Part shown: positions 39,599 to 41,251 of the stretch, piece by piece
Layout: the number at the start of each line of letters is the position of its first letter
Numbering within the stretch: the first letter of the stretch is position 1
Assembly (NCBI RefSeq): GCF_000196895.1
Contig: NC_014297.1
Location: 62,001-126,000, forward strand
Direction of reading: 5' to 3'
From: Halalkalicoccus jeotgali B3
GTDB lineage: Archaea; Halobacteriota; Halobacteria; Halobacteriales; Halalkalicoccaceae
DNA: 64,000 nucleotides
Made by a program: the position numbers and the translations under genes
Notes under the pieces: model-generated
What the model was told of the DNA's origin: nothing
The model's database searches: none
What the model saw: only the letters and a program-made list of their open reading frames with translations

Positions 39599-41251
39599 AT
39601 GCAAGTAGACCCCTCGGTGCTCGCGGAGGGGGTCAACATGATGTGGGTGCTGGTGGTGACGTTCCTCATCTTCTTCATGCACGCCGGTTTCGCGATGCTC
39701 GAAGCGGGCCAGGTGCGCTCGAAGAACGTCGCGAACCAGCTCACGAAGAACCTGCTGACGTGGGCGGTCGGCGTCGTGATGTTCTTCTTCGTCGGCGCGG
39801 CGATCAGCACGATCGTCGGCGCGATCACCGGCGGGGGAAGCTACACGCTGGCCGACGCCTTCTCCTCGACGATCGGCGGCGATTCGGCCGCCTGGGTCGA
39901 TTGGCTGTTCGGCGCGGTCTTCGCGATGACCGCAGCGACCATCGTCTCCGGGGCCGTCGCCGGCCGCGCGAAGCTCCGTGCGTACGTCGGCTTTACCGTC
40001 CTCCTCGCGGCCGTGATCTATCCCGTCGTGACCGGCCTGACGTGGGCCGGGGGCTTCCTCGATGCGCTGGGCTTTCACGACTTCGCGGGCGGCATGATCG
40101 TCCACGCGGTCGGTGGGATCGCCGGGCTGACTGCGGCCTGGATCCTCGGCCCGCGGATGGACCGCTACAACGCCGACGGTACCGTCAACGTCATCCCCGG
40201 CCACTCGATGACCTTCGCGGTACTCGGCACGCTCGTGTTGGCCTTCGGCTGGTACGGCTTCAACGTCGGCACCGCCGCGACCGTCTTCACCGCCGAGGGC
40301 GGCGAACTCGCGCTGGGTGCCTTCGAGTACGTCGGGCGGGTCGCCCTCGCGACGACGCTCGGGATGGCGCTGGGCGCGCTCGGCGCGAGCGTCGTCTCGC
40401 TGGCGCTCACCAAGAAGGTCGACACGCTCTACGTCGCCAACGGCCTGCTCGCAGGCCTGGTCGGCGTGACCGGCATCGCCGACATCGTCACCTGGTGGGG
40501 TGCGGTGCTGGTCGCGTTCATCGCCGGCGCACAGCTCCCCCTGGTGTTCCGTTTCGTCGAGCGCAACCTGAAGATCGACGACGTCTGTGCGGTCTTTCCT
40601 GTCCACGGGTCGGCCGGGGTCATCGGCGCGCTTGCGATCCCCTTCGTCGCGATCCCCGGTGAGGGCCCGACGGTGGTCGCACAGGTCGTGGGCGTCGCCG
40701 TGATCGCCGCCTGGACGATCGGCGCGACCGCGCTCGTCTGGGGCGCGTTCAAGGCCCTCGGCCAGGCCCGGGTCACCCCCGACCACGAGCGCGACGGCCT
40801 GGACGTCTCCGAACACGGCGTCGACACCTACCCCGAGTTCGGCGGTCCCGACATCGCCACCGACGGCGGTCCCGACGTCGTTCGCACGGACGGTGGCGTC
40901 GCGGACTCGGGGATCAAGATGATCACCGCGATCGTTCGTCCCGACCGGCTGGGTGCGGTCAAACGCGAACTCGCGAACGTCGGCGCGCCCTCCCTGACGG
41001 TCACGAACGTCTCGGGCCGCGGCTCACAGCCCGCCAAAAAGGGCCAGTGGCGCGGCGAGGAGTACACCGTCGACCTGCATCAGAAGGTGAAAGTCGAATG
41101 CGTCATCGCGGACATCCCCGTCGACGAGGTCGTCGAGGCGATCCGCGAGGGTGCCAACACCGGCGAGCCCGGCGACGGCAAGATCTTCGTCATGCCCGTC
41201 GAGGACGCCCTGCAGGTCCGCACTGGCAACCGCGGCCCCGAAGCAGTCTGA
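39599..41251 (+). CDS. amt: Ammonium transporter fused to a P-II signalling protein
   Basis: A single 550-residue frame. Residues about 1-395 form an Amt channel with about eleven helices; [18 protein letters not shown] near the start and the twin histidines in [13 protein letters not shown] and [12 protein letters not shown] are intact. A hydrophilic linker (about 396-437, with a repeated TDGGPDVV-like unit) leads to a complete P-II/GlnK domain (about 438-550): [14 protein letters not shown]-loop [20 protein letters not shown] with the conserved Tyr, and [17 protein letters not shown]. No stop codon separates them. In most organisms amt and glnK are adjacent separate genes; here the regulator is tethered. 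Confidence 0.93.

Follow-up and report, generated by a model that had tools for sequence, protein, structure and literature searches.

The window (the whole 64-kb stretch of Halalkalicoccus DNA analysed here) contains an amt-glnK fusion gene, a single stop-free frame on the forward strand (39599-41251, +) whose translation runs to 550 amino acids. A Pfam search assigns residues 15-411 to the ammonium transporter family (PF00909, Ammonium_transp; E 6.6e-92), covering that profile in full (positions 1-399 of 399), and residues 440-543 to the P-II family (PF00543; E 1.4e-26). A preliminary description of this DNA had reported one uninterrupted frame for Amt and P-II, which the translation and the two Pfam domains bear out. 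Because the P-II shares its frame with an integral membrane protein and is not made as a separate soluble protein, it is treated here as a P-II domain rather than a stand-alone GlnK.

The Amt channel module (residues 1-411; 39599-40831, +) has the Amt fold, with Foldseek matches to 6eu6, 2b2f and 2nuu. Alignment with E. coli AmtB recovers the twin pore histidines His169 (AmtB His168; 40103-40105, +) and His336 (AmtB His318; 40604-40606, +), both invariant in an alignment of relatives, as well as Phe104/Phe108, Phe221, Trp149 and Asp161, which cover the Phe gate and the entry site; AmtB Ser219 corresponds to Thr225. With PF00909 matched over its whole length and the AmtB pore residues aligned, the full Amt channel claimed earlier stands. 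The alignment runs on through the C-terminal region to Tyr411 (AmtB counterpart RVPEEQEREGLDVNSHGENAY), and residues 391-411 (40769-40831, +), with many invariant columns in the alignment of relatives, are the conserved cytoplasmic C-terminal region of Amt, not linker.

Between the conserved domains lies a linker of about 27 residues (412-438; 40832-40912, +; PEF...TDGG...RTDGG...) that is predicted to be flexible, since an AlphaFold2 monomer (57 sequences, mean pLDDT 76.7) recovers both folds and gives a pLDDT below 50 over residues 405-434; docking is outside a monomer's reach. Thus, of the 40-residue linker proposed previously, the tether survives and the length does not, the remainder being the Amt C-terminal region.

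The P-II domain (residues 439-550; 40913-41248, +) has a free C-terminus, and its nearest solved chain is 4ozj (E 9e-51), which I take to be a GlnK of Haloferax mediterranei and whose T-loop is nearly identical. The T-loop (P-II residues 37-55; 41021-41077, +) lies in a region of the monomer model with pLDDT below 50 (residues 472-494), as expected of a flexible segment, and carries Arg47 (41051-41053, +) and Tyr51 (41063-41065, +). The ligand residues Gln39, Lys58, GDGK and Arg103 are also present, in agreement with the earlier account of a full P-II with intact T-loop and conserved Tyr. Column counts over 108 fused and 45 separate haloarchaeal P-IIs show Gln39, Arg47, Lys58, Gly87-Lys90 (GDGK) and Arg103 to be invariant in both sets; Arg101 is replaced by Gln, in the window P-II as in nearly all sampled haloarchaeal P-IIs.

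I found little divergence of the T-loop in fused forms, the clearest case being the change of Tyr51 to Phe in one group: 15 of the 108 fused genes, all from the Halorubrum/Halobellus group (L064, L068, L073, L074, L082, L086, L089, L090, L092, L094, L097, L100, L105, L112 and L119), and none of the 45 separate haloarchaeal P-IIs. Modification of Tyr51 is impossible in those proteins. The window P-II retains Tyr51, the residue that GlnD uridylylates in E. coli GlnK; modification by such an enzyme is a hallmark of the proteobacterial type alone. I was unable to identify a GlnD-type uridylyltransferase (PF08335) in the 98.6%-complete Halalkalicoccus genome. The GlnKs of Hfx. mediterranei are reported to be uridylylated (PMC3831643).

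Could two genes simply have been joined by a sequencing or assembly error, a stop codon having been lost by misreading? The same frame is open in independent assemblies, including Halalkalicoccus paucihalophilus (L042, 97% identity), other congeners and many haloarchaeal genera, which rules such an error out and leaves it a negligible probability. Relatives of the fusion gene were found at 80 haloarchaeal loci, nearly all fused along their entire length, and the search for Amt-PII fusions that had been proposed yielded, in the fetched loci, 108 distinct haloarchaeal genes with both domains in one frame. The fusion in the window is therefore real, and far beyond chance.

Fused and separate forms in haloarchaea and beyond

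The preliminary description held separate amt and glnK genes to be the norm, a statement that fails for haloarchaea, since fused genes are no rarer than separate ones in the lists that were sampled; fusions also exist in bacteria. The fetched loci comprise 108 distinct fused genes versus 74 separate Amt/P-II pairs, 45 of them haloarchaeal. In the separate relatives, amt and glnK are neighbouring genes and the Amt ends in a similar tail; at four loci (L059, L076, L114 and L121) such a pair lies directly upstream of a fused gene, in tandem. Outside Halobacteriales but within the same phylum, no fusion was found among the matches listed; P-II frames there reach at most 172 aa, except at L145, where the P-II frame is 343 aa and Amt and P-II are separate ORFs.

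A quick maximum-likelihood tree of the Amts (139 rows) implies about 12 changes between the fused and separate states, at least seven of which are forced by strong branches. When the two kinds of change cost the same, or fusion costs more than splitting, the tree yields two fusions and 10 splits, and with splitting made twice as expensive as fusion the result is eight fusions and five splits. The first solution is the best reading of this quick tree, and it places one fusion at the root of a large haloarchaeal clade, clade A, and one in the other haloarchaeal clade (L022, L183). Transfers between lineages are likely. Given some 12 switches and the similarity of the adjacent separate pairs, the two forms seem to be functionally exchangeable.

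The linker varies from 18 to 66 aa across the 108 fused haloarchaeal genes, with the frame kept in every one, and among Halalkalicoccus congeners most of the differences within it are third-position changes, although the numbers are small. A similar PEF...DGG tail closes the separate haloarchaeal Amts and is soon followed by the P-II domain; for this reason the linker is probably the old Amt tail read through.

At nine loci (L009, L011, L020, L029, L039, L050, L065, L111 and L181) the linker contains an in-frame DNA insert, about 50 bp long and closely similar from copy to copy, which is also present in other proteins (L197, L199, L205, L206, L208, L209 and L210), for the most part close to their starts. 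Its best copies form two perfect hairpins (GGTGAGCGACTCGACGAGTCGCGATCCTCGTCAGAGCTTCGCTCTGACGG), and all copies are translated in one frame, giving ...ESRSSSELRSDGG or something close to it. The insert appears to be a haloarchaeal palindromic repeat of low copy number that is embedded in proteins; none was found in the 64-kb window.

Outside the archaea, tblastn of plasmid records recovered whole-length relatives in Bacillota, each as a single CDS. All three that were checked (Monoglobus WP_320691151.1, Enterococcus raffinosus WP_222227351.1 and Ruminococcus albus WP_013483901.1) contain both Pfam domains in the same order as the haloarchaeal gene and in one CDS, and are annotated merely as ammonium transporter. 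They are about 31-36% identical to the window protein over the aligned length, a distance large enough that they probably originated independently. In the literature searched, which contains few subscription papers, I found no description of an Amt-PII fusion; one paper credits earlier sightings of Amt modules joined to other domains to Tremblay and Hallenbeck 2009 (PMC5764959).

Transporter, sensor or general nitrogen regulator

Among solved structures, Ks-Amt5 and Sd-Amt1 are nearer in sequence to the window Amt than E. coli AmtB is, which leaves ammonium transport by the protein likely rather than certain. Like the fusion, both combine an Amt with an extra C-terminal domain, an output histidine kinase in Ks-Amt5. 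One may ask whether the Amt part serves mainly as an ammonium sensor, as in Ks-Amt5, with P-II as its output domain. Its best solved relatives, 6eu6 and 8qj3, are indeed sensor Amts, and of the seven residues that make up the second ammonium site of Ks-Amt5 (Q24, E31, N47, D50, T51, T109 and T112; PMC5764959), four are identical or conservatively substituted (Glu, Asn, Thr, Ser). However, these positions read H E N T W T S in 129/129 clade A genes, the window gene included, so two key residues of the site are altered throughout (Gln to His and Asp to Thr). Only one of three bulky pore-closing residues is present (F27, Y30 and F34 of Ks-Amt5 are F, L and Q in the window Amt), and the window gene is the sole Amt of its genome. 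With neither the second site nor the pore closers matched, a sensor of the Ks-Amt5 type was rejected, and a mainly sensory role for this Amt is very unlikely.

The signature itself deserves comment. The Q-E-N-D ammonium-binding signature was reported to be special to the sensor Ks-Amt5 and absent from assimilatory Amts (PMC5764959). I find it across many Amts (at positions equivalent to window Amt residues 28, 35, 51 and 54): the full second-site string is QENDTTT in Ks-Amt5, QENDFTS in Sd-Amt1 and the bacterial fusions, and QENDWTS in the haloarchaeal clade outside clade A. A signature common to so wide an Amt subfamily is by itself no mark of a sensor. A paired H-E-N-T variant takes its place in clade A of the haloarchaea and in no fewer than nine further archaeal Amts; the Bacillota fusions thus have QEND versus HENT in the window Amt, which, judged from these residues, lacks the sensor signature.

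More striking than any point in the preliminary description, and absent from it, is that the 98.6%-complete Halalkalicoccus genome yields one P-II match and one Amt match, both of which are the fusion gene; it also has one glutamine synthetase. A survey of P-IIs across the order (243 genomes; best-scoring matches, listed by score and thus not an unbiased sample) suggests that this is common. Among the matches listed and by hand tally, at least 85 genomes contain a P-II frame of fused length, which is the sole P-II in 76/85, and at least 47 contain only separate P-IIs; that a fused-length frame holds both Amt and P-II is confirmed for the fetched loci only.

If the fused P-II is the only one, it may also act as the general nitrogen regulator, its T-loops, when off the pore, binding, recruiting and activating glutamine synthetase at the inner mouth of the channel. 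This would suit a genome with one P-II and one glutamine synthetase, and the 76/85 fused-length genomes with no other P-II among the matches listed; the separate GlnKs of Hfx. mediterranei activate glutamine synthetase in vitro (PMC3831643), the closest solved chain, 4ozj, has nearly the same T-loop, and in M. mazei it is the T-loop that binds glutamine synthetase (PMC10651883). Against this, M. mazei GlnK1 contacts the enzyme by Ile48/Tyr49, whereas the haloarchaeal P-IIs have Gln/Trp, like the non-binding GlnK2 (PMC10651883; the equivalence of these positions is inferred), and the number of fused P-IIs is limited to the number of channels. Such a second role is rather unlikely. A broader version is unlikely as well: that most fusion-bearing haloarchaea do without soluble P-II and restrict all P-II signalling to the cytoplasmic mouth of the channel, where the T-loops by turns close the pore and hold glutamine synthetase, and so jointly open uptake and activate ammonium assimilation.

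Free P-II might also be produced beside the tethered form, by proteolysis of the linker or from an internal start. The preliminary description had considered a separate glnK transcript starting inside the linker. A candidate translation start lies at 40919-40921 (+), an ATG at P-II residue 3 that is the sole in-frame ATG near the junction. An in-frame start codon occupies this position in 93/108 fused genes, and some genomes have extra stand-alone P-IIs. But Met3 is also found in 30/45 separate P-IIs, whose genes apparently start further upstream, and for that reason looks ancestral rather than kept as a start. It is missing in the congener G004 (L009), 64/108 fused genes have no start codon at all in the linker, and a product begun at 40919 would lack part of strand 1. 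A conserved internal start at the junction is thus unsupported by the codon scan of the 108 fused genes and by Met3 in separate P-IIs, and additional free P-II from the window gene is decidedly unlikely. The extra stand-alone P-IIs, one or two genes following the fusion gene at L021, L025, L075 and L177, keep linker remnants in several cases and look like a secondary release of P-II.

A probable plug on a tether

The preferred reading is that the fusion encodes a self-plugging ammonium channel, probably the AmtB-GlnK plug on a tether. Fused and separate forms hardly differ in the residues of pore, T-loop and ligand binding, and it is therefore likely that the known plug is what has been tethered. 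E. coli AmtB-GlnK (2NUU, 2NS1) shares with the fusion the Amt fold, twin His, C-terminal region and T-loop Arg47, but consists of two genes and two proteins, and its GlnK departs to the cytosol. The amtB-glnK genes of Hfx. mediterranei share the gene order, and in the Haloferax species fetched the Amt tail and P-II domain resemble those of the fusion; unlike the fusion, the Hfx. mediterranei genes are separate, in two pairs, and their GlnK binds the membrane reversibly, associating with AmtB1 there after ammonium shock, and activates glutamine synthetase (PMC3831643).

According to this model, three chains would form the membrane Amt trimer and their three tethered P-II domains one P-II trimer beneath it. 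At low 2-oxoglutarate (the nitrogen-rich, ADP-bound state) the Arg47 T-loops would enter the three pore exits and halt uptake. With Mg-ATP and 2-oxoglutarate bound, the T-loops would shift and the plug swing out while remaining within reach of the channel. The stoichiometry would be fixed at 1:1, and the regulator would never be lost to the cytosol. The open frame, the intact pore, T-loop and ligand residues, the flexible linker, the sole Amt and P-II and the repeated interconversion with separate pairs are observed; the pairing of the trimers, the plugging and a faster re-closure are inferred.

By a rough polymer estimate, the tethered P-II has a local concentration in the millimolar range at the pore, so that dilution could not bring about release and the change in the T-loops would have to. 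In Methanothermococcus, Mg-ATP and 2-oxoglutarate free GlnK from membranes, and ligand binding by GlnK is upset by a C-terminal tag but not by an N-terminal one (PMC8395244), which fits a P-II joined via its N-terminus. Counting against a plain plug, the small protein sP36 is required for the contact of GlnK1 with AmtB1 in Methanosarcina mazei (PMC10714827). The earlier proposal that tethering would alter the speed of gating is plausible.

P-II proteins are diffusible integrators of carbon and nitrogen status. Within one archaeal order, channel and plug have been repeatedly joined and split, and the tethered copy is often the sole P-II. These organisms thus offer a natural test of whether P-II must leave the channel at all, of whether anything depends on covalent modification (the Halorubrum group carries Phe51), and of how tethering alters the response to ATP, ADP and 2-oxoglutarate.
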